Positions 39,197 through 50,364 of a stretch of DNA of 57,625 nt are shown here, one piece after another. Under the pieces are notes generated by a model that ran no database searches, was not told where the DNA came from, and worked only from the letters and a program-made list of their open reading frames with translations. Source of the DNA: Acidobacteriota bacterium (lineage in GTDB: Bacteria > Acidobacteriota > Vicinamibacteria > Fen-336); assembly GCA_003223555.1 (NCBI GenBank), contig QHVM01000051.1:1-57625 (forward strand), written 5' to 3'. Each line of letters starts with the position of its first letter. The first letter of the stretch is position 1. The position numbers and the translations under genes were made by a program.

Positions 39197-42100
39197 TCAG
39201 TTCGTCGCCGCGGGGGCGTTCCAGGCTTCCGCCTCCACGACCGGACGCGCGCCCGAGCCGCGCGGATACGAGACGTGGAGGACCCGCTTCTCGCCGGGCA
39301 GCAGCTCGAAGTAGTTGTCCTCCCAGTAGACGGGCAGGATCTCCCGCCCGCCCGCGCCCTCGATGAGCTTCACGCGCACCTGGAAGGCGAGAGCGCGGCC
39401 GGCATTCTCGACGCTCACGCGCGCGGAGCCTTCGGGTCCCGCCGGCTCGGCCGGCGACGACACGACCAGCTTCGTGGGCGGCAGCGTGGCCAGCGCCGTG
39501 AGGTCGGCGTGCGTCGTCGTCGGCGTGTAGTACCACTTGGTGTTCTTCCAGTCGAGCACGTCGTCACGCGTCGAGAGCCAGTAGAAGTTCGTGCTGACCA
39601 CGCGTCCCTCGGCGTCCGCCAGGCCCAGCCGGAGGAAGTAGGTCGGGGTCAGGTCGGCCAGGGCGGGGATGACGATCGCCCGCACGACGCCGTCCGGGGG
39701 CACGTCCACCTCCGCGTCGCGGGAGAACCTCGATCCGAGCCCCAGGTCGAGGACGCGGGCGGACACCTTCACGCCGCGGAACGCTTCCGGACGGTCGTTG
39801 ACGACGGCGACCGACCGGTCGTCGTACGAGTACTGCACGTGGAGCGGCTCGCACGCCTTCTTCGTCCCGAAGTAACCGCCGCCGGGACGCAGGTAGTAGT
39901 CGTAGAGGTGCCAGATCATCGAGGGCCAGGCGTTGTTGAGCATCCACTGGATGACGCCGGTGCCGACGTACTTGTTGCGGGCGTAGCCCTCGAACATCGC
40001 CCGCTCGCCCTCGTAGGCCAGGGCCTGCGCCTTGCGCGCGTAGTCCTCGACGCCGGTGGCCTTGCCGTAGCGTCCCTCGAGGGCGCCGGTGAACAGCTTG
40101 AGGTCCTTGAACTCTCCCCCCCCGGCGTGGAAGGCCCACACCTCGTCGATCGGCCAGAGGTGATCGCCGGGCAGCATCTGCCTCAGGCTCTCGACCGGCG
40201 GCACCGCGGCGCCGGGGCTGATCTCGGTCGCGAAGCCGAAGGCGCCTCCCGAGTCGTGGTCGGTGAGCCAATACGAGGGCGGCACGTAGTCGTAGGGGCC
40301 CTTCATCTTGACGCCGCTCGCCCCGCTGACGCTCGTCGGCTTGTCGGTGGCGGACGAGATGATGGGCTTGGGCCATGACTGTTGCGCGAGCACCTCGAGG
40401 TAGGCCTTCTCGACGTCGGGCGGCGGCGGGCCGTCGCTGCCGTCGAGCCAGACGAGCAGGCTGGGATGGTTGCGCAGCCGCCGCGCCTGGTCGGTCAGGG
40501 AGGCGACCGCCACCCGGCGGTCCTCGGCGTCCCAGTCCTTCCACTTCTCCCAGTGGTCGCAGCAGCACCAGCCGGCCATCACCAGGATGCCGTCGCGGTC
40601 GGCGAGGTCGAAGAACTCGTCAGGCTCCAGCTTGCCTTCGAGCCGGATGGTGTTGAGGCCCATCTCCTTCACGTAGCGGAACTGCGCCTCCAAGCGCTCC
40701 CGCGACCACCGCAGCATCATGTCCGGCGACCAGCCCCCGCCGCGGATGAGGATCGGCTTGCCGTTCACCTTGAAGAGCCGATGGCCCTCGGGCGTCAGCT
40801 CCGAGTCGATCTGCTGGATGCCGAAGCGCACCTCCTGGCGGTCCGACCGCGACCCGTCCGCGTCGACCGAGAGCGCCAGCGTGTACAGCTCCGGCGCACC
40901 CATGCGGTAGGGCCACCACAGCCGCGGGTGGGACAGGTTGAGCGCGGGCACTTGCTCGGGCGCGAAGCGGACAGTCGCCTTCTCGCGGGGCGCGAGCTTC
41001 ACCGGCCGTGAGAACCGGACGTCTCCGATCACGCCCCTCACCGTGCCGACCGCCTCCTTGTCGGTCGCGTTCCAGACCTCGGCGGTCACGGTCAGGTGGG
41101 CCGCGTCGAGCGAGGGCAGGTCCAGCCGCGCGAGGACCTGCGGGTGGCGCAAGGCGAGCGGTCCGCTGTCGGAGATCGACACGCCGGCCCAGAGGCCCAT
41201 GTCCTTGTCGGGGGGGGCGGGGTTCCAGTCGACCCAGGTGATCCCGAGGTCGCCGGGACCGGGGGCGAAGACCTCGACGGCCAGCGCGTTGCGCGTCCCC
41301 GGATGGGCGAGCCGTGTCACGTCGAACTCGTAGCGGCGGAACGCGCCCGCGACCTCGTCGGATCCGGCGACCCGCTCGCCGTTGAGCCAGACGTTGGCGC
41401 GGTAGTTGATCCCGTCGAAGCGCAGCCAGAACGCGCGGCCGGGAGGCGAGGCCGGCAGCGCGAACTCCGTGCGGTACCACCAGGACGAGCGGAACGGGCT
41501 GTCGCCGGGCATGGGCAGGTTGGAGAAGTTCTTTCCGATCGGGTACGTGGCGCCAGGCAGCGAGCGGAGGGCCATGCCGAAGTAGGGATCGGGATAGGTG
41601 CCGTCGCCGACGAGGGCGCCGACGACCGTGCTCGGAACGGCCGCGCGATGCCAGGCCTCGGTCCGGAAGCCAACCCTGGACACCGCCTCCCCCTTGACCA
41701 CGACCTTCCCGGAGGACTGGATCGCCCAGCCGGCATCGAGGGACTGGTGAAGGCCGGCCGGATCGGCGGCCCCCGCCGGCGCCGCCAGGGCGAGCAGCAG
41801 CGTCGTCGCGCCCGCGAACGGCCACGCCCGCTCCAGGCGCGCCCGGCCCAGGAACGTGGCGACACCCGCCGCGAGCGTAAGCAGGCCCACCTCCACGTAG
41901 CCCCAGCCCGACGTCAGGAAGATGTAGGCCCACCCGGCCAGGGCCACGATCGCGGGCACGGGGTACAGCCACATCTTGAAGGGGCGCGCGTCGTCGGGCA
42001 GCCGCTTGCGCAGCAACGGCACCGCGATGATCTGCCCGACGAACTGCACGATCACCCGGGTGGTGATGAGGGCGGTGATGACCTGGTCCAGGCTGAAGAA

Positions 42101-43132
42101 CGACGCGACGATCGACACCGCGCCCAGGACGTAGAGCGAGACGTCGGGGAACTGCTTGGTCGGGTGGACGTGCGCGAAGGCCTTGAAGAAGTCGCCCTGG
42201 ACCGCGGCCGCGAACGGGATGCGCGAATAGCCGAGGAGCAGCGCGAAGACCGACCCGAACGCGGTCCACAGGATCATCAGCGTGACCGCCACCGCCGCCC
42301 CCCGCCCGTGCAGCCGCTCCATGAACTCCGAGACCACGTACTTCGAGTTGAGCATCTCCCGCCAGGGGATCACGCCGAGGAGCGAGAGGTGGAGCAGGAA
42401 GTACCCCACCGCGCACCCGAGGATCGAGAAGAGGATCGAGCGCGGGATCACGCGCGCCGGGTCCCGGACCTCGTCGCCGATGTAGCAGATGTCGTAGTAG
42501 CCCAGGTAGTCGTAGATCGCGATGAGGGCCGCGCTGCCCAGGCCGAGCACGAAGCCGCGGTTGAAGTCGAAGGCCCCGGGGGGGAAGTCGGCCATCACCG
42601 CCAGCATCGTCGCCACCGTCCCCACCCACAGCGTCACCGTCAGGCGGCTGAGGAACGTGATCCGCCGCGCCAGCAGGACGATGGCGAGCAGGCCCGCGGC
42701 CGCGCCCACGTAGCGGCCCCCCCCGCTGGCGAGGCCCGGCCACAGATAGCCTGCGTACTGCCCGAAGCCGATGAGCCCGGAGGCGATCTCGAGCGGTCCG
42801 CTCAGCACGAACGACCAGATGAACAGGAACGCCATGAGCCGCCCCCAGCGGGCCGGTCCGTAGGCCTCGCGGAGGAAGCGGTAGCTGCCGCCCGAGCCGG
42901 GCAGGGCCGCGCCCAGCTCGCTCCACACCTGCCCGTCGCACAGCACGATGAGGGCCCCCACCCACCAGCCCAGCAGCGACTGGGGGCCTCCCATGGCGGC
43001 CATCAGGAGGGGGATGGTGATGAACGGGCCGACCCCCACCATGTTGGCCATGTTGAGGGCGGTGGCGTGCAGGAGGCCGAAGCCGCGGGTGAGGTGGGGA
43101 CGCGCGGGGGCGGCCGGCGGGATCGGCTCCAT
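39197..43132 (-). CDS. APC permease fused to GH2 exo-beta-D-glucosaminidase
   Basis: One 1311-residue frame joins two whole proteins. Residues 1 to about 430 are an APC-superfamily permease with about 12 helices (GFGLLHATALNMANMVGVGPF, AALPGSGGSYRFLREAYGP, YDYLGYYDICYIGDEVRDP). Residues about 432-455 (AWPFAGATTLLLALAAPAGA) look like a signal peptide or a 13th helix. The rest is a GH2 enzyme: jelly-roll (WYRTEFALP), sandwich and barrel. The acid/base candidate is Asp in WLDGSD (about 897), the nucleophile Glu in GFATEISPG about 70 residues later, as in the exo-glucosaminidase CsxA. With 13 helices the enzyme would lie in the periplasm. No Met lies near the junction. A chitosan or glucosamine-oligomer role fits the ROK and ChbG neighbours. 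Confidence 0.88.
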   Translation of the reverse strand: MEPIPPAAPARPHLTRGFGLLHATALNMANMVGVGPFITIPLLMAAMGGPQSLLGWWVGALIVLCDGQVWSELGAALPGSGGSYRFLREAYGPARWGRLMAFLFIWSFVLSGPLEIASGLIGFGQYAGYLWPGLASGGGRYVGAAAGLLAIVLLARRITFLSRLTVTLWVGTVATMLAVMADFPPGAFDFNRGFVLGLGSAALIAIYDYLGYYDICYIGDEVRDPARVIPRSILFSILGCAVGYFLLHLSLLGVIPWREMLNSKYVVSEFMERLHGRGAAVAVTLMILWTAFGSVFALLLGYSRIPFAAAVQGDFFKAFAHVHPTKQFPDVSLYVLGAVSIVASFFSLDQVITALITTRVIVQFVGQIIAVPLLRKRLPDDARPFKMWLYPVPAIVALAGWAYIFLTSGWGYVEVGLLTLAAGVATFLGRARLERAWPFAGATTLLLALAAPAGAADPAGLHQSLDAGWAIQSSGKVVVKGEAVSRVGFRTEAWHRAAVPSTVVGALVGDGTYPDPYFGMALRSLPGATYPIGKNFSNLPMPGDSPFRSSWWYRTEFALPASPPGRAFWLRFDGINYRANVWLNGERVAGSDEVAGAFRRYEFDVTRLAHPGTRNALAVEVFAPGPGDLGITWVDWNPAPPDKDMGLWAGVSISDSGPLALRHPQVLARLDLPSLDAAHLTVTAEVWNATDKEAVGTVRGVIGDVRFSRPVKLAPREKATVRFAPEQVPALNLSHPRLWWPYRMGAPELYTLALSVDADGSRSDRQEVRFGIQQIDSELTPEGHRLFKVNGKPILIRGGGWSPDMMLRWSRERLEAQFRYVKEMGLNTIRLEGKLEPDEFFDLADRDGILVMAGWCCCDHWEKWKDWDAEDRRVAVASLTDQARRLRNHPSLLVWLDGSDGPPPPDVEKAYLEVLAQQSWPKPIISSATDKPTSVSGASGVKMKGPYDYVPPSYWLTDHDSGGAFGFATEISPGAAVPPVESLRQMLPGDHLWPIDEVWAFHAGGGEFKDLKLFTGALEGRYGKATGVEDYARKAQALAYEGERAMFEGYARNKYVGTGVIQWMLNNAWPSMIWHLYDYYLRPGGGYFGTKKACEPLHVQYSYDDRSVAVVNDRPEAFRGVKVSARVLDLGLGSRFSRDAEVDVPPDGVVRAIVIPALADLTPTYFLRLGLADAEGRVVSTNFYWLSTRDDVLDWKNTKWYYTPTTTHADLTALATLPPTKLVVSSPAEPAGPEGSARVSVENAGRALAFQVRVKLIEGAGGREILPVYWEDNYFELLPGEKRVLHVSYPRGSGARPVVEAEAWNAPAATN

Positions 43133-43167
43133 GTCTCTGACTCGTGAGGCGTCGGCTGCGGGCGGAG

Positions 43168-43195
43168 ACTATTTCAGCCGCCGCCCTGGCGTCAA
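43168..43195 (-). promoter_or_regulatory. Promoter of the permease-GH2 gene
   Basis: On the minus strand TTGACG (43195-43190), 16 bases, AATAGT (43173-43168). The leader is about 29 bases. Direct repeats GCGCTTTCC (43197-43205) and GCGCTTTTCC (43223-43232) lie upstream, between this promoter and the ROK gene, and are candidate operators. Confidence 0.45.
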
Positions 43196-43278
43196 GGCGC
43201 TTTCCCGGCTCGCTCTTCCTTCGCGCTTTTCCTTGCCCCGGCGCCGCCCAGTTCGGTAAGCTTCGTCCCGAACATCGC

Positions 43279-44511
43279 ATGGAACGTGGTCGAGCCCTGA
43301 CGCTCCGCCCTGCCGCGGAGGTGGGGGCAGGTGACGCCGGCCACCTGCGTCGGCTGAACCTGCAGCGCGTGCTGGCTGCCGTCATGAGCCAGCCGAGCCC
43401 CTTCACCCGAGCCGAGCTGATCGAGGCGACCGGCCTGTCCGCCCCGACCATCGGGAGCCTCGTCGCCCACCTCGTGCGCAGCGGCGTCGTGCGGGACCTG
43501 GGGGCCGGGCCCTCCCGGGGGGGACGGCGGCCGGCCTTCATGGAGTTCAACGCCCGCCACGGGTTCGTGGCCGGGATCGATCTCGGTCCCACCCGCACTA
43601 GGCTGGCCGTGGCCGACCTGAAGGGCGAGCGGCTCGCCCACCACGTGATGCCGACGCCGTCCGGGCTCGGACCGGCCGCGCTGCTCACCCAGGTCGCCGA
43701 GGGGCTGCGGGCCCTCCTCCGCGAGGCGCAGGCGCCGCCCGAGCGGCTGCTCGCGGTGGCGGCCGGCGCCCCGGGGGCGGTCGACCGGCAGCGCGGCATG
43801 GTGACCTTCGCTCCGAACCTCAACGGTTGGACGCAGGTCCCCATGCGCGAGATCCTGGAGCAGGCGCTGGGCACGGCGGTCATCGTCGAGAACGACGTGA
43901 ACCTGGCGGTGCTCGGCGAGCACTGGCGGGGCGCCGCCCGCGGCCACGATACCTGCGCCTTCATCTTCGTCGGCACCGGCATCGGCGCCGGCATCCTGAT
44001 CGACGGCGCCCTGCACAGCGGCCATCACTTCATGGCCGGCGAGATCGCGGTGATGTGCATGGGGCCGCAGTACCTCGACGTGGACTTCGGCTCGCGCGGC
44101 TGCCTGGAGACGCTGGCCGGCCTCAAGGCGCTCTCGGGCCGGTGGCCGGGGGCGGCCGGACGCGATCCCGCCGTGTGGCTGGCGGAGCTGTTCGACGCCG
44201 CCCAGGACGGCGACCGCCGCGCGCGCCGCGCGGTCGACGAGACGGCGCGGCTCATCGGCATCGCGGCCGCCAACGTCGTCGCCGTCGTCGACCCGTCCTT
44301 GATCGTGCTGGGGGGCGCGCTGTTCGCACAGGCCGAGCCGCTCGTCCACGAGGTGCGGAAGGTCGTGCACCGGCTCGCCCGCGCGCCCATCGACGTCGTC
44401 GTGTCCGCGCTCGGCAAGGAGGCGCCGCTCTGGGGCGGCCTGCTCGTGGCCACGACCGAGGCGCGCGGGCGGTTGCGCCACCGGGTGCGCGAGACAAGGG
44501 TGGCCGGTTGA
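43279..44511 (+). CDS. ROK-family transcriptional regulator
   Basis: The 410-residue protein has a winged helix-turn-helix (about 25-85; RAELIEATGLSAPTIGSLVAHLVRSG) and a ROK sugar-kinase-like domain (GIDLGPTRTRLAVADLKG, AAGAPGAVD, VENDVNLAVLGEHW, GTGIGAGILIDG). The normal zinc motif CxCGxxGCxE is here DVDFGSRGCLE, so two cysteines are missing, and the zinc His of GEIGH is replaced (AGEIAVM). It is probably a sugar-responsive repressor like NagC or Mlc. It is divergent from the permease-GH2 gene and overlaps the deacetylase gene. Confidence 0.88.
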   Translation: MERGRALTLRPAAEVGAGDAGHLRRLNLQRVLAAVMSQPSPFTRAELIEATGLSAPTIGSLVAHLVRSGVVRDLGAGPSRGGRRPAFMEFNARHGFVAGIDLGPTRTRLAVADLKGERLAHHVMPTPSGLGPAALLTQVAEGLRALLREAQAPPERLLAVAAGAPGAVDRQRGMVTFAPNLNGWTQVPMREILEQALGTAVIVENDVNLAVLGEHWRGAARGHDTCAFIFVGTGIGAGILIDGALHSGHHFMAGEIAVMCMGPQYLDVDFGSRGCLETLAGLKALSGRWPGAAGRDPAVWLAELFDAAQDGDRRARRAVDETARLIGIAAANVVAVVDPSLIVLGGALFAQAEPLVHEVRKVVHRLARAPIDVVVSALGKEAPLWGGLLVATTEARGRLRHRVRETRVAG

Positions 44512-45506
44512 GCCAGGCGAAGACGACCCTTCGGCCGCGAGGCACCGCCCGGGCGCTCGGCGCGTTGCTCGCGCTCGCGCCGCTACCCGCTGCGCGGGCG
44601 GCCGCGCCCGCAGCAGCCGGGGCGTCCGTCCCGACCGTCCAGGAGAGGCTCGGCCATCCCGCGAGCGCCCGGCTGCTGGTCATCCACGCCGACGACCTCG
44701 GCATGGCCCACTCGGTCAACCGCGCCACCTTCGAGGCCCTGGAGAAGGGCTGGATCACCTCCGCCAGCATCCTCGTCCCGTGCCCGTGGTTTCCGGAGGC
44801 GGCGCGGTGGGCGCGCGCGCATCCCGGCGCCGACCTCGGCATCCACCTTGCCCTGAACAGCGAATGGACGGGGTTCCGATGGGGCCCGGTGAGCGGCGCC
44901 GCTGCCGTCCCGAGCCTGCTCGACGCGGACGGCTATCTGCCCCTCGTGGAGACCACGGTCGTCAACCAGGCGAAGGTGGCGGACGTCGAGCGCGAGCTGC
45001 GGGCCCAGGTGGACCGGGCCCGGGCGGCCGGCGTCGGCCTGTCGCACCTCGACTCGCACATGGGCACGCTCTTCCGCTCGCAGGCGCTCTTCGATGTCTA
45101 CCGGCGGCTCGGGGAAGCCTACGGCCTGCCGCTGCTGATGGAGCGCCTGGGCGCCCGGGGCGGAAGCGAGTCGCCGCTCGTCCCCGGCCCGCAGGCCGAC
45201 GCGCTCGTCGACCGCGTGGTCTCGATGGAGCCCGGGGTGACGTCCGCCGGCTGGCGCGCCGCCTACGAGAAGATGCTGGCGCCCCTTCCCCCCGGCGTCT
45301 ACCAGCTCATCGTCCACCTGGCCTACGACGACGACGAGATGCGGGGCGCCACCTCCGACCATCCCGATTGGGGCGCGGCGTGGCGGCAATCGGACTTCGA
45401 CCTCGTGCGCAGCGCCTGGTTCGCGGACTTCCTGCGCGGGCAAGGCTTCATCCGGGTGAAGTGGAGCGACCTCGCTCGCGCCCGCCGCGCGTCCCCGGCC
45501 CGCTAG
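44508..45506 (+). CDS. Exported YdjC/ChbG-type carbohydrate deacetylase
   Basis: The 332-residue protein has the YdjC fold: metal-binding HADDLGMAHSVN (about 58-69), HLALNSEW and SHLDSHMGTLF (about 179-189). ChbG removes an acetyl group from chitooligosaccharides. The TTG start overlaps the ROK stop (TTGA). The N-terminus (LRPRGTARALGALLALAPLPAARAAAP) looks like a signal peptide, which places the enzyme outside the cytoplasm, unlike E. coli ChbG. With the exo-glucosaminidase it could turn N-acetylated oligomers into glucosamine. The exact substrate is an inference. Confidence 0.83.
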   Translation: MSQAKTTLRPRGTARALGALLALAPLPAARAAAPAAAGASVPTVQERLGHPASARLLVIHADDLGMAHSVNRATFEALEKGWITSASILVPCPWFPEAARWARAHPGADLGIHLALNSEWTGFRWGPVSGAAAVPSLLDADGYLPLVETTVVNQAKVADVERELRAQVDRARAAGVGLSHLDSHMGTLFRSQALFDVYRRLGEAYGLPLLMERLGARGGSESPLVPGPQADALVDRVVSMEPGVTSAGWRAAYEKMLAPLPPGVYQLIVHLAYDDDEMRGATSDHPDWGAAWRQSDFDLVRSAWFADFLRGQGFIRVKWSDLARARRASPAR

Positions 45507-45518
45507 AAGCGCACCGAT

Positions 45519-47183
45519 TCAGCGGGGCTGGTCGATCTCCAGCAGCCGGTCGGCCCGGACCTCGTCCATCCGGCTGGAAGTGCCGTCCGGCCACCGTACC
45601 TCGATCGAGTCGGCCTGCGCCGCCGCGCCGAGGCCGAAGTGGGCCCGCATGTCGTCCTGCGAGAGATAGCCGGTCCCGCTGCGGACGAGCCGCATCAGGC
45701 GGCGGCCCCCCGCCCGCACGGTCACCACGGCCCCCAGCGCGTCGGTGTTGCCGCCCTTGCCCTTGAGCTTGACGAGCAGCCAGTGGCCCGCGCCTTCCAG
45801 CTCGTTGTGGAGGACCTGCGCGCCGCCGTCGAGGTCGTTGACGACGACGTCGAGCCGGCCGTCGTTGTCGAGGTCGCCCACGGCCAGGCCCCGGCTCACC
45901 CGCTCCTCGGTCAGCACCGGGCCGAACTCCGCCGACACCTCGTCGAACGTGCCGTCGCCGCGGTTGTGGTACAGCAGCCGGCGCTGGCGGTAGGGAGCCG
46001 AGGCGCCGAGGCGGGCCTTGTCGAGCTGGGGATAGACGTGGCCGTTGACCGCGATGATGTCGAGCAGGCCGTCGTCGTCGTAGTCGAGGAACGCCGTGCC
46101 CCAGCCGACGTAGGGCAGGCTGCTGGGGGCGGTCTTGGAGCGGAAGGACACGTCGGTGAAGTGGTCTCCGTCGTTGTGGTAGAGGTCGTTGTACTCCTCG
46201 GAGAAGTTCGTCTTGAACAGGCTGAAGCGTCCGCTGTTGTCGTAGTCGCCCACCGCCACGCCCATGCCCCCCTGCTCCGCCCCGTCCTCGCTCACTGCGA
46301 CGCCCATCGGGAACGCCGACTCCTTGAACGTGCCGTCCTTCTGGTTGAGGTAGAGGAAGCTCGGCGTCGAATCGTTGGCGACGTAGAGGTCCGGCCAGCC
46401 GTCCTCGTTGGCGTCGAACCACGCCACCCCCAGTCCGAAGTAACCGCGCGGGTCGGAGACCCCCGCCCGGGCCCCCACCTCGGTGAAGTGGCCGTTGCCT
46501 TCGTTGTGGTAGAGCAGGTCGCCCTCGCCCGGCAGTCCGCGCGGGCCGCACTGCACCGCGATGCCCCGGTACTCGCACGTCTTGCCCTTCCCGAACTCGG
46601 GCAGGTGCTCCAGGTCGATCTTCACGTAGCGGCTGACGAAGAGGTCGGGCTTGCCGTCGCGGTCGTAGTCGGCGAAGCCGCACCCCGTCGACCAGCCACC
46701 GCCGGCCAGGCCCGCCCGCCCGGTGACGTCGCCGAACGTGCCGTCGTGGTTGTTGCGGTAGAGGTGGTTCCCGCCCAGGCCGGTCACGTAGAGGTCCTCC
46801 CACCCGTCGCCGTCCACGTCGGCCGTGCACACGCCCATGCCCCAGCCGGGGTGGCCGATCCCCGCCTTGTCGGTGACGTCCTCGAACCTCCCGTGGCCCA
46901 GGTTGTGGTAGAGCGCGCTGCGCGCCGCTTGGGGGTCCCGGGCGGTCTCCACGGTCAGGGAGTCCACGAAGTAGATGTCGGGCAGGCCGTCGTTGTCGAA
47001 GTCGAAGAGCGCGACGCCCCCGCTCATCGATTCGACGATGTACTTCTTCTCGGGCGCCGCGTGGTGCTGGAAGGTGATGCCGGCCTCGCGGGTGACGTCG
47101 CGGAAGAGCAGCCGGGCGACCGGCTGGGCGAGGGCGGCCGCCGCGGCGAGGGCGGCGAGGAGTCCGCTCAGGGCGGCCTTCAC
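45519..47183 (-). CDS. ASPIC/UnbV-VCBS repeat exported protein
   Basis: The 554-residue protein has a signal peptide (MKAALSGLLAALAAAAALAQ) and several VCBS/FG-GAP repeats with calcium-binding loops such as FDFDNDGLPDIYFVDS, ADVDGDGWEDLYV, ADYDRDGKPDLFVS, FDANEDGWPDLYVAND and GDLDNDGRLDVVVND, a seven-bladed propeller. It ends in an ASPIC/UnbV domain (SIEVRWPDGTSSRMDEV). Human CRTAC1 has the same build. It is the last of five genes of the minus-strand operon and overlaps the previous TPR gene. It is likely an extracellular or outer-surface scaffold. Confidence 0.9.
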   Translation of the reverse strand: MKAALSGLLAALAAAAALAQPVARLLFRDVTREAGITFQHHAAPEKKYIVESMSGGVALFDFDNDGLPDIYFVDSLTVETARDPQAARSALYHNLGHGRFEDVTDKAGIGHPGWGMGVCTADVDGDGWEDLYVTGLGGNHLYRNNHDGTFGDVTGRAGLAGGGWSTGCGFADYDRDGKPDLFVSRYVKIDLEHLPEFGKGKTCEYRGIAVQCGPRGLPGEGDLLYHNEGNGHFTEVGARAGVSDPRGYFGLGVAWFDANEDGWPDLYVANDSTPSFLYLNQKDGTFKESAFPMGVAVSEDGAEQGGMGVAVGDYDNSGRFSLFKTNFSEEYNDLYHNDGDHFTDVSFRSKTAPSSLPYVGWGTAFLDYDDDGLLDIIAVNGHVYPQLDKARLGASAPYRQRRLLYHNRGDGTFDEVSAEFGPVLTEERVSRGLAVGDLDNDGRLDVVVNDLDGGAQVLHNELEGAGHWLLVKLKGKGGNTDALGAVVTVRAGGRRLMRLVRSGTGYLSQDDMRAHFGLGAAAQADSIEVRWPDGTSSRMDEVRADRLLEIDQPR

Positions 47184-48145
47184 GGCCGCGGCGCCGCGGG
47201 GGCGGATCCCGCCTGGCCGCGCAGCTCCTGCAGCCGCTCCTCGACCTCCCGCAGCGCCTTCTGGTACAGCTCGACTTCGCGGCGGGAGCGGGCCTCGTCA
47301 CCGAGGCGCGCATAGGCGAGGCTGAGCTGGTAGTGGGCTTTCGCGGAAGTGGGGTCGGCGGCCGCTGCCTTCTCCAGCGCGTCGCGCGCCTCGGCGAACT
47401 TCTCCTCCTTCATCAGGACCATCCCCAGCACGAGGTTCGCGGTCGGCTGGTCCGGCGAGCGGGCCACCGCGCGGAGGGCGTGCGCCCGGGCCTCGTCCAG
47501 CTCCCCGAGGCCCTCCTCCGACTCGGCCAGCGCGGCCACCGCTTCGACGCTCTCCGGCTCCCGCTCCAGGCTGCGAACGAGGTACGGCTTCGCCTCGGCG
47601 TACAGCTTCCGCTTGTTGAAGGCGAGCCCCAGCGCGACCAGCGTGAGCACCCGGTTCGGCTCGAGGCGCTCGGCTTCCGCGAGGGCATCGACGGCGGCCG
47701 TCATGTCTCCCGCCTGCATGAGCGCCACTCCGAGCAGGTAATGGTGGTCGGCGACATCGGCCCAGATGCGGGTCAGCGACTCCAGGGCCGGGATCGCCCG
47801 CACCGGCGCGCCGGAAGCGAGTGCCACCTGGGCGTATGCGCTCAGGAGGTCCTCCGAGTTCGGCGCCAGCGCGAGCGCCTGCCGGAGCGTCGCCAGCGCC
47901 CGCGCGCCCTCCTTCTGCCCGGCCTCCAGGCGGGCGAGCTGGAGCAGCGCCGTCACGGAGTGGAACCGCAGCGCCGCTTCGCGCAGCTCCTGCGCCGCGA
48001 CGGAGCGCCGGCCCGCCGCGGCGTCGGCGGCCGCCTTCTCGAGCGCCCGGTCGCGCTCTCCTGCGGTCGAGGAGGCCGCCGGCGTTTGTCCGGACGAGGG
48101 GACCGCCAGGGCCAGCGTCAGGCCCAGCCCGACCAGCGCCCTCAC
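47180..48145 (-). CDS. Exported TPR protein
   Basis: The 321-residue protein has a signal peptide (VRALVGLGLTLALAVPSSGQ) and about seven TPR units from about 40 to 290 (for example LLGVALMQAGDMTAAVDALAEAERLEP and VLGMVLMKEEKFAEARDALEKAAAADP). The C-terminus is a Arg/Glu-rich helix (ALREVEERLQELRG). GTG is the start; it overlaps the stop of the larger TPR gene, and the gene itself overlaps the ASPIC/UnbV start. It probably binds its operon partners in the periplasm. Confidence 0.85.
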   Translation of the reverse strand: MRALVGLGLTLALAVPSSGQTPAASSTAGERDRALEKAAADAAAGRRSVAAQELREAALRFHSVTALLQLARLEAGQKEGARALATLRQALALAPNSEDLLSAYAQVALASGAPVRAIPALESLTRIWADVADHHYLLGVALMQAGDMTAAVDALAEAERLEPNRVLTLVALGLAFNKRKLYAEAKPYLVRSLEREPESVEAVAALAESEEGLGELDEARAHALRAVARSPDQPTANLVLGMVLMKEEKFAEARDALEKAAAADPTSAKAHYQLSLAYARLGDEARSRREVELYQKALREVEERLQELRGQAGSAPAAPRP

Positions 48146-50364
48146 GGCAGGCTCCCCCGCCGCTTGTCCTTGAGCTGCCGGAAGACCTCGAACTGCTGCT
48201 GCGCGAGGTCGGCCCGGCCCAGCTTCTGGTAGGCCTGGCCGAGCTGGTACCGGATGTTCGCCTCGTCCGGCGCCAGGCGGGCGGCGGCTTCCAGGTGCTC
48301 GACCGCCTCCGCAGCCGCGCCCTGGGCGAGCAGGATCTTGCCGAGCAGGTAGCGGGCGCCGGCGAAGTCGGGCTTCGTCTTGAGCACCGCCCGCAGGAGC
48401 GGCTGCGCCTCCTCGGGCCGCCCCTCCAGGTCGAGGACCGCGGCCAGGTCGTGCCGCGCCTTGAAGGCGTCGGGGTGGGCGGCCAGCTCCGCCCGTAGCG
48501 CCTGCTCGGCCTCGGCCAGCTTTCCCTGCTTGAGGTAGATGATGCCCAGGGTGGCGTTCGCCTCGGCGACCGTCGGCTGGAGGCTCAGGGCGCGCTGCAG
48601 CGCCTGGATCGCTCCCTCGTAGTCCCCCTGCTGCGCGCTGGCCTGGCCGATGACGACGCTCAGGTCCGGCGACTCGCCGTGTCGGGCGAGCAGCCGCCCG
48701 AAGACGGCCTGGGCCTCCGCCGCCCGGCCGCTTCGCACGAGGGACAGTCCGTAGGCATACTGCAGCGAAGGATCGGCCTCGCGCTCCGGGTCCTGGCCGA
48801 GCAGCTCGGCCGCCTTCTCGTACGCCTCGGTGTTGAGCCAGGAGAGGGCCAGCATCCTCCGCAGGCCCGGCTCGGCGGGCCGCGTCTCGAGGGCGCGCGC
48901 GAGGGGAGGGGCCGCCTTGTCGAACTGCTGGGCGTTGAAGTAGGCGACACCGAGCGAGTACTGGACCTGCGGGAAGCCAGGGTCGATTGCCGCCGCGGAC
49001 GCGAAGAGCGCGGCCGCCCGCGCGAAGCGCTGGCGCTGGGCCTGCATCACGCCGAGGTTGAGGTAGGCGCGGGTGAGCGCGGCCCGAGCGCGGCCCTCCA
49101 GGGCCTGTCGCTCCGCGGCGCCGAGCCCGGACAGCGCGCTCTCCGCGGGGGCCATCGGGGACGATCGCGATTCGCGGTCCAGGCTCCCGGCCAGGTAGCT
49201 GGCCAGCCGCTCGCGGGCGGTCTCCGCCGCCTGGGCCGAGGCGCGCTCGGCCTCCGCGAAATGAGCGACGGCCTCCTGCTCCTGGCCGACCTGTCGCAGG
49301 GCGAGCGCGAGCTGGTAATGGACGCTGCGGAGCAGGCCCGGGTCGGAAGCCGGCCCCCGCGCCCGGGCCAGCTCGAGCGCCCGGCGCAGCGACGTGACCG
49401 CGTCGTTCGCCCCGCCCAGGGCGAGCTGGGCGCGTCCCAGGTAGTGGAGCGCGTCCACCGGGGGAGGGTCGGCGCGGGCGGCCCGCTCGAGGTGCGGCAG
49501 CGCCTGGCTGGGACGGCGCGCCTCGACGAGCGCCATGCCGAGATAGAGGCTGGCCAGGCTGTCCCCCGGCGCGAGACGCAGCTCCTTCTGGAACTCCGAG
49601 ATGGCTTCGTCCAGCCGCGCCCGCCTCTCCCCCAGCAGGGCCACCGTGCCGAGGTAATAGTGCGCCCGGCGAACGGCGGGATCCTGGCTGAGGGCCGCGC
49701 GCAGCTCGGTTTCCGCCTGCTCGTACTCGCCGAAGTCGCGGTAGGTGCGGCCGATGAGGACGTGGGTCTGGGCGATCGGCTTCGCCCGGGCGACCTGGGC
49801 GAACAGCCGCTGGGCGGCGTCGACCCTCTTGAGGCGCAGGTACCCGCTGGCGAGCGTGAAGTCCAGCTCCAGGTCGCCCGGCGAGGCGGTCCGAGCCTCT
49901 TCCAGCTCCTGCACGGCCTGTTCGGGCTGGCCGCCGGCGAGGAGGGCCTGGGCGAGCAGGCGCCGGGCCTCGGTGTCCTTCGCGTTCCGTCCGGCGAGCG
50001 GCGTGAGGACTTTCACCGCCTCCGACGGCTCCGCCATCTGCAGTTGGACGAGGGCGAGCGACAGCAGCGCCGGCCGGTTCTCCACCGCGGAGGCGGAGGC
50101 GCGGCGGAACGCGTCGCGCGCGTCGGTCAGGCGGCCGGCGGCGGCCGCGAGCGATCCTTCGAGCAGCCAGGCCTCGCGGAGCGCCGTCCGGTAGTGGCTC
50201 TCGGCCGCCTGCAGCTCGCCGTCGCGCAGGCTGGCCTCGGCCGACGCCATCGCCCGGTCGAGCGGCGCGGCCGGATCGGGCCGCGTCGCGGGCGCCGCGA
50301 GCGCGCTGCCGAGGAGGAAGGGGGTGGCCCAGGAAAGGGAGGGCATGATCGATCGTCCGAGCAC
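48142..50364 (-). CDS. Large exported TPR protein
   Basis: The 740-residue protein is almost entirely TPR repeats, about 16-18 units, behind a probable signal peptide (MLGRSIMPSLSWATPFLLGSALAAPA). Repeats are clear in AHYYLGTVALLGERRARLDEAISEFQKELRLAP and ANATLGIIYLKQGKLAEAEQALRAELAAHP. I used the GTG at 50364 because it adds a positive residue to the signal; the ATG at 50346 is the alternative. The stop overlaps the next gene. Such long TPR proteins in acidobacteria are common but uncharacterised. Confidence 0.83.
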   Translation of the reverse strand: MLGRSIMPSLSWATPFLLGSALAAPATRPDPAAPLDRAMASAEASLRDGELQAAESHYRTALREAWLLEGSLAAAAGRLTDARDAFRRASASAVENRPALLSLALVQLQMAEPSEAVKVLTPLAGRNAKDTEARRLLAQALLAGGQPEQAVQELEEARTASPGDLELDFTLASGYLRLKRVDAAQRLFAQVARAKPIAQTHVLIGRTYRDFGEYEQAETELRAALSQDPAVRRAHYYLGTVALLGERRARLDEAISEFQKELRLAPGDSLASLYLGMALVEARRPSQALPHLERAARADPPPVDALHYLGRAQLALGGANDAVTSLRRALELARARGPASDPGLLRSVHYQLALALRQVGQEQEAVAHFAEAERASAQAAETARERLASYLAGSLDRESRSSPMAPAESALSGLGAAERQALEGRARAALTRAYLNLGVMQAQRQRFARAAALFASAAAIDPGFPQVQYSLGVAYFNAQQFDKAAPPLARALETRPAEPGLRRMLALSWLNTEAYEKAAELLGQDPEREADPSLQYAYGLSLVRSGRAAEAQAVFGRLLARHGESPDLSVVIGQASAQQGDYEGAIQALQRALSLQPTVAEANATLGIIYLKQGKLAEAEQALRAELAAHPDAFKARHDLAAVLDLEGRPEEAQPLLRAVLKTKPDFAGARYLLGKILLAQGAAAEAVEHLEAAARLAPDEANIRYQLGQAYQKLGRADLAQQQFEVFRQLKDKRRGSLP

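Follow-up and report, generated by a model that had tools for sequence, protein, structure and literature searches.

The window analysed here, the whole 57,625 nucleotide stretch of contig QHVM01000051.1, contains a gene that joins an APC permease to a GH2 glycosidase. This fusion is real and conserved. It unites members of two known families whose pathway can be recognised and, as far as the genomes and papers searched show, it is a new architecture. The fused gene (39197–43132, minus strand) is a single open frame of 1311 codons, running from ATG to stop with no internal stops, and its 1311 aa product comprises the permease, a signal-peptide-like helix and a predicted exo-beta-glucosaminidase. 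The first-pass annotation of this DNA had proposed the fusion and had named a frameshift or stop in the junction of re-sequenced DNA as grounds for rejecting it. No stop interrupts the 1311-codon frame in the present assembly, both halves are complete, and the frame is likewise fused in a second species (genome G001, see below). The same annotation knew of no described APC-GH2 fusion, and the papers searched yielded no such fusion and no other permease-glycosidase fusion. Papers searched for transporter-carbonic anhydrase fusions as a precedent contained unrelated ones only.

Composition of the fused protein

The permease half (residues 1–434; 41831–43132, minus strand) matches the Pfam profile AA_permease_2 over residues 18–404 of the fused protein (E 1e-28). 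An AlphaFold model of residues 1–470, built from 29 aligned permease relatives, has the 12 helices of the LeuT fold followed by a short 13th at residues 440–450 (pLDDT 84, pTM 0.82), as in the 12+1 helix topology first proposed. On the profile and the modelled fold, this half is assigned to the APC superfamily. It is full length in the alignment of 29 relatives, reaching the WPF motif where the conserved part of the unfused permeases ends. The nearest solved folds are LAT1, y+LAT1, the bacterial transporter BasC and a bacterial CAT homologue (GkApcT), the best match being the light chain of LAT1-CD98hc; the fold and profile matches are amino-acid transporters without exception. The window permease shares the 12-helix LeuT fold and the AA_permease_2 profile with these transporters. 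However, its gene context is one of amino sugars rather than amino acids, and it carries a C-terminal enzyme.

Twelve residues between helices 5 and 6 (SGLGHFDAARAF in G001), kept by most of the other aligned relatives, are missing from the window permease at 42589–42590 (minus strand), between the codons for A181 and D182. This gap is either a true deletion or a local assembly fault, and possibly harms transport.

The GH2 part occupies residues 456–1311 (39200–41767, minus strand). Pfam places GH2 domains from residue 548 onwards and an Ig_GlcNase domain at residues 1200–1305 (E 4e-28). The top match among solved structures is the exo-beta-D-glucosaminidase CsxA (PDB 2VZS), which aligns with residues 450–1308, the full GH2 length (E 2e-184). 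In a residue-by-residue alignment, D900 (GSD, within the SD motif; 40433–40435) corresponds to CsxA D469 at the acid/base position, E970 (FATE; 40223–40225) to E541 at the nucleophile position, and E832 (RLEG; 40637–40639), a Glu where GH2 enzymes usually have His, to E394 (all minus strand). The roles given are those of the CsxA residues. GH2 subfamily 16 is marked by SD replacing NE and by a Glu where His is usual in GH2 (PMC12243196). Both markers are found in the fused protein (S899-D900 and E832), together with the nucleophile Glu, E970. By alignment, the GH2 half is a CsxA-type exo-beta-glucosaminidase of GH2 subfamily 16 that keeps the catalytic and amine-site residues, and the full-length CsxA match and the subfamily markers bear out the enzyme class originally proposed. 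The entire GH2 half, including the catalytic residues, the SD motif, the amine-site Glu and Ig_GlcNase, is common to both proteins. However, CsxA is a free secreted enzyme, and the window enzyme has a permease ahead of it.

Between the halves, the permease ends in a charged C-terminal tail, RARLERAW (residues 430–437; 41822–41845, minus strand), which is also present in G001 and in unfused permeases and would act as an n-region. Directly after WPF come 16 residues, AGATTLLLALAAPAGA (440–455; 41768–41815, minus strand), and then AD. From hydropathy, these 16 residues read as the hydrophobic core of a signal peptide with an AxA site. The length of the core and the AxA are identical in G001, and a proline precedes the AxA in both fused species. 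Ordinary signal peptides of unfused GH2 relatives start at the place that matches the junction. The C-terminus of 12-helix APC permeases is cytoplasmic, so the GH2 part, beyond one further helix, would have to face the periplasm.

An internal hydrophobic core followed by AxA, as expected of a polyprotein processed by signal peptidase, is seen in both fused species on hydropathy and sequence. Because the AxA site is kept in both, the enzyme may be cut off, and we think that signal peptidase I probably cleaves there and frees it; otherwise, the enzyme would stay tethered beside the permease. A precedent is FbcH, the Bradyrhizobium cytochrome b/c1 polyprotein, in which a polytopic membrane protein is joined in frame to an exported protein via an internal signal sequence and the product is cleaved; the papers searched included none of relevance to FbcH. 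The internal-signal layout is the same; however, the proteins are unrelated, and cleavage has been shown for FbcH and is predicted here.

Distribution and history of the fusion

The second fused gene is in Acidobacteria bacterium AA35 (G001, QHVJ01000220.1), which belongs to the same genus. The frame is 75 % identical to that in the window, can be followed to query residue 1208, where the contig ends, and has the same neighbours (ROK, YdjC, ASPIC and TPR). The window comes from a draft genome. However, as G001 is an independent assembly of another species with the same fused frame, the fusion is not an assembly accident, and an assembly or sequencing artefact is rejected as extremely improbable. 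Between the two species dS is about 0.5, and dN/dS is lower for the permease (0.14) than for the GH2 part (0.37); on these sequences, purifying selection acts on both halves.

When a 350-residue probe over the joint was used, an in-frame match spanning both sides was found in only two of the 193 genomes of the class, the window genome and G001. A search with the full protein of 100 relatives and 396 genomes of the phylum revealed no further genome that spans the junction in frame, and there was no further fused locus among the best 80 loci of a GTDB scan. The fusion is lineage-restricted, being found in one genus and two related species, and in other genera every locus at which an intact junction was seen has the halves as separate genes. 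The first-pass annotation would have been refuted by relatives in which the halves are always separate genes; this holds outside the genus, with the intact-junction limit just given, but not for G001. A third fused genome was sought in the family, where the contig of G010 breaks off at permease residue 255 and that of G005:C49 inside GH2.

Several long frames were considered and rejected. The long GH2 frames of G227, G255, G282, G096 and G294 have no permease match; the N-terminal extension is protein-like and reads as a discoidin-type domain in the first four, and resembles a spurious upstream frame in G294. In G273, the upstream part of a long permease frame coincides with a PIG-L gene read in a different frame. 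A GH2 branch at 31–32 % identity (L161, L162, L163 and L164) has some 400 additional residues at the N-terminus, which read like a discoidin-type domain.

The two halves have discordant histories. The window and G001 are 89 % identical in the permease, 89 % in the ROK protein and 82 % in the YdjC protein, and the trees pair the two species for ROK (support 100/99) and YdjC (100/98) and place their permeases together with that of G010 (100/99). The window GH2 part is instead nearest to two copies in G005 (72 %), and that of G001 (L081:9342–11615) groups with those of G009 and G003 (99/97). A tree uniting both fused GH2 parts was rejected (log-likelihood 52.7 lower, AU p 8e-8), the constrained group having been named after the first tree was seen. 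The DNA identity between the two species drops from high to about half right after the WPF codons. As the GH2 halves come from different lineages, the enzyme half was swapped or the permease was fused twice: either there was one fusion and a later recombinational exchange of signal peptide plus GH2, or the same permease was fused on two occasions. In both fusions, 16 residues separate WPF from the predicted cleavage site. This equal spacing mildly favours one fusion, the joint being too short to decide.

Neighbouring genes and unfused relatives

A ROK-family gene (43279–44511, plus strand) and a gene for a YdjC/ChbG-type carbohydrate deacetylase (about 44508–45506, plus strand, probable TTG start) are divergent from the fused gene. 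The ROK protein matches PF00480 (E 5e-53) and has an N-terminal HTH at residues 75–117 of the longest frame; its start was set at the ATG at 43279, where identity to G001 rises. It has both the HTH and the ROK domain, but scores 123.8 bits against a NagC equivalog cut-off of 650. The deacetylase matches nearly the full PF04794 profile (E 6e-53) and scores 57.5 of the 227 bits required for the chitin disaccharide deacetylase equivalog, making it a family member and not ChbG itself. The YdjC protein is read with a signal peptide, and its homologues carry signal peptides as well. A ROK regulator and an exported YdjC/ChbG deacetylase had both been predicted, and these matches agree with that. The families are those of ChbG/YdjC deacetylases and NagC-type ROK proteins, and the context is again that of chitin sugars. 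However, classical ChbG is cytoplasmic and the window deacetylase is predicted to be exported, and the window ROK protein falls far below the NagC cut-off.

The divergent intergenic region is 146 bases long (43133–43278) and includes a putative sigma-70-like promoter for the fused gene, located by eye with the relatives' regions (TTGACG, 43195–43190, and TAGTCT, 43171–43166, minus strand, 18-base spacing). Five unfused relatives have a TAGTAAAGnnnTTTAnnAAAGT-like site between ROK and GH2; nowhere else in the locus is there a better match to the consensus, which was drawn from the very sequences on which it was scored. This near-palindrome, a candidate ROK operator, is found at L044:9402, L102:7917, L084:3263, L167:5521 and 5626, and L042:9757. 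Neither fused species has a recognisable copy, the best window match being 11 of 18 positions, within shuffle noise, and regulation may therefore have changed there. Genes for an ASPIC/UnbV FG-GAP protein and a TPR protein (45519–47183 and 48142–50364, minus strand in the window) adjoin the ROK/YdjC/GH2 cluster in several family members.

In six Blastocatellia-type loci (L053, L082, L083, L085, L088 and L100), the permease gene is followed by a separate GH2 gene on the same strand, in the order seen in the fusion, and a YdjC gene is divergent also at L053 and L083. At L082, the GH2 ATG stands in the permease frame two codons past the permease stop, so that loss of this stop would give a fusion. 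An arrangement with ROK, mostly with YdjC, adjoining GH2 and without a fused-type permease is found in the unfused members of the window's own family (G009, G003 and G005) and in the gp6 genomes L084 and L102; in G009, G003, L084 and L102, a different APC permease is downstream of a GH2 gene.

An APC permease is within 3 kb of the GH2 enzyme at 49 of 80 Acidobacteriota loci. By our own arithmetic, the chance expectation is about 2 %, with 5.4 Mb containing about 15 APC genes; we give no P value, the 80 loci being related to each other. The fused-type permease accounts for 6 loci and a second APC type for 43, counts of which the first is biased, and the second hardly so, by the permease-containing query used to gather the set; the two types never occur together (0 of 80). 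Neither type is present at 19 of the 50 GH2 loci with full flanks. The second type (L065:8281–9627 and relatives) is what usually accompanies the exo-glucosaminidase in Acidobacteriota. It is 23 % identical to the fused type over 147 residues, its closest protein in the window genome is only 32 % identical, and it is a second candidate glucosamine importer. Some relatives of the fused-type permease adjoin PIG-L de-N-acetylases, for which reason an amino sugar without its acetyl group may be what is carried. Others adjoin unrelated genes.

Proposed pathway and alternative readings

We consider it likely that this is a glucosamine-salvage cluster in which the genes for an APC importer and a periplasmic exo-beta-glucosaminidase became one. 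The permease would insert with its charged C-terminal tail left in the cytoplasm, and the former signal peptide, now an internal helix, would direct the GH2 part to the periplasm. The enzyme would be freed at the AxA by signal peptidase I, or would remain beside the permease. Chitin-type oligosaccharides would be deacetylated by the exported YdjC protein, the GH2 enzyme would take glucosamine off their non-reducing end, and the permease, judging its substrate by gene context, would import it under regulation of the cluster by the ROK protein. A NagB-type gene is available in the window genome, and GH18 and GH20 genes are also present there. Nothing relevant on APC glucosamine importers was found in the papers searched. 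Counting against this reading are the permease matches to amino-acid transporters, the unrelated genes beside some permease relatives, the 19 GH2 loci with neither APC type, the 12 conserved residues absent from the window permease and the lack of a recognisable ROK site in the fused species. Acidobacteriota are soil bacteria that include chitin degraders (PMC6252331).

The permease could instead carry an amino acid, a peptide or another amino sugar derivative, the pairing reflecting shared nutrition and not a shared substrate. This is consistent with the fold and profile matches, which are all to amino-acid transporters, and with the unrelated genes beside some permease relatives; however, we regard it as unlikely given that two distinct APC subfamilies are each paired with the enzyme, never both at one locus, and that permease relatives stand beside de-N-acetylases. 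The possibility that the fusion is neutral, a stop codon having been lost between neighbours whose products work as before with no gain, is a serious one, falling somewhat short of probable. Adjacent genes one stop codon apart exist (L082), the fusion is confined to one genus and the probable cleavage site is kept. Against this, the fusion was retained while dS reached about 0.5, and it involves two different GH2 modules, needing two fusions or an in-frame exchange.

The first-pass annotation supposed that the enzyme is tethered to its own transporter. Its 12+1 topology and signal-peptide-like junction stood; the tether itself is the less likely outcome. With a permanent tether, helix 13 would be an uncut signal anchor and the periplasmic GH2 enzyme would hand glucosamine over to the permease beside it. 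The continuous frame in two species, the 12+1 topology, the fold match to the LAT1-CD98hc light chain and the occurrence of the fused state with two different GH2 modules all favour this. Nevertheless, the AxA would be expected to be lost if tethering were selected, and both fusions retain it together with the proline, like the unfused relatives, whose signal peptides are cleavable. A permanent tether is therefore put forward only tentatively, and cleavage remains our preferred reading. In heteromeric amino-acid transporters (LAT1-4F2hc and b0,+AT-rBAT), an APC subunit partners a single-helix protein with an extracellular glycosidase-fold domain (4F2hc or rBAT), an arrangement of APC subunit, extra helix and ectodomain like that seen here. 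However, these transporters have two chains and a GH13-like domain. The window protein is a single chain, and its ectodomain is assigned by Pfam to GH2, not to the SLC3-type GH13-like heavy chains, and is apparently, from its sequence, an active enzyme; the likeness is one of analogy, not homology.

The fusion acts as a Rosetta stone: through it, glucosamine release is linked to a permease whose family carries the annotation of amino-acid transporters. It is of most value as functional evidence for the import of amino sugars by APC permeases. The recurrent pairing with two APC subfamilies leads to the prediction that these permeases import glucosamine. The widest reading combines a tethered single-chain glycosidase-transporter that feeds its own permease, an exchangeable enzyme module and a class of APC glucosamine importers in Acidobacteriota; taken together, these are improbable and we offer them as speculation. 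If true, the tethered form would be a convergent counterpart, with a live enzyme, of the animal LAT-4F2hc/rBAT architecture. The fusion also makes it possible to test whether a transporter with a hydrolase attached secures private uptake of a sugar that is set free outside the cytoplasm.

In a GH2 branch at 43–44 % identity (L072–L075, e.g. L073:5393–6667), an MFS transporter and a ROK-family gene replace the APC permease.
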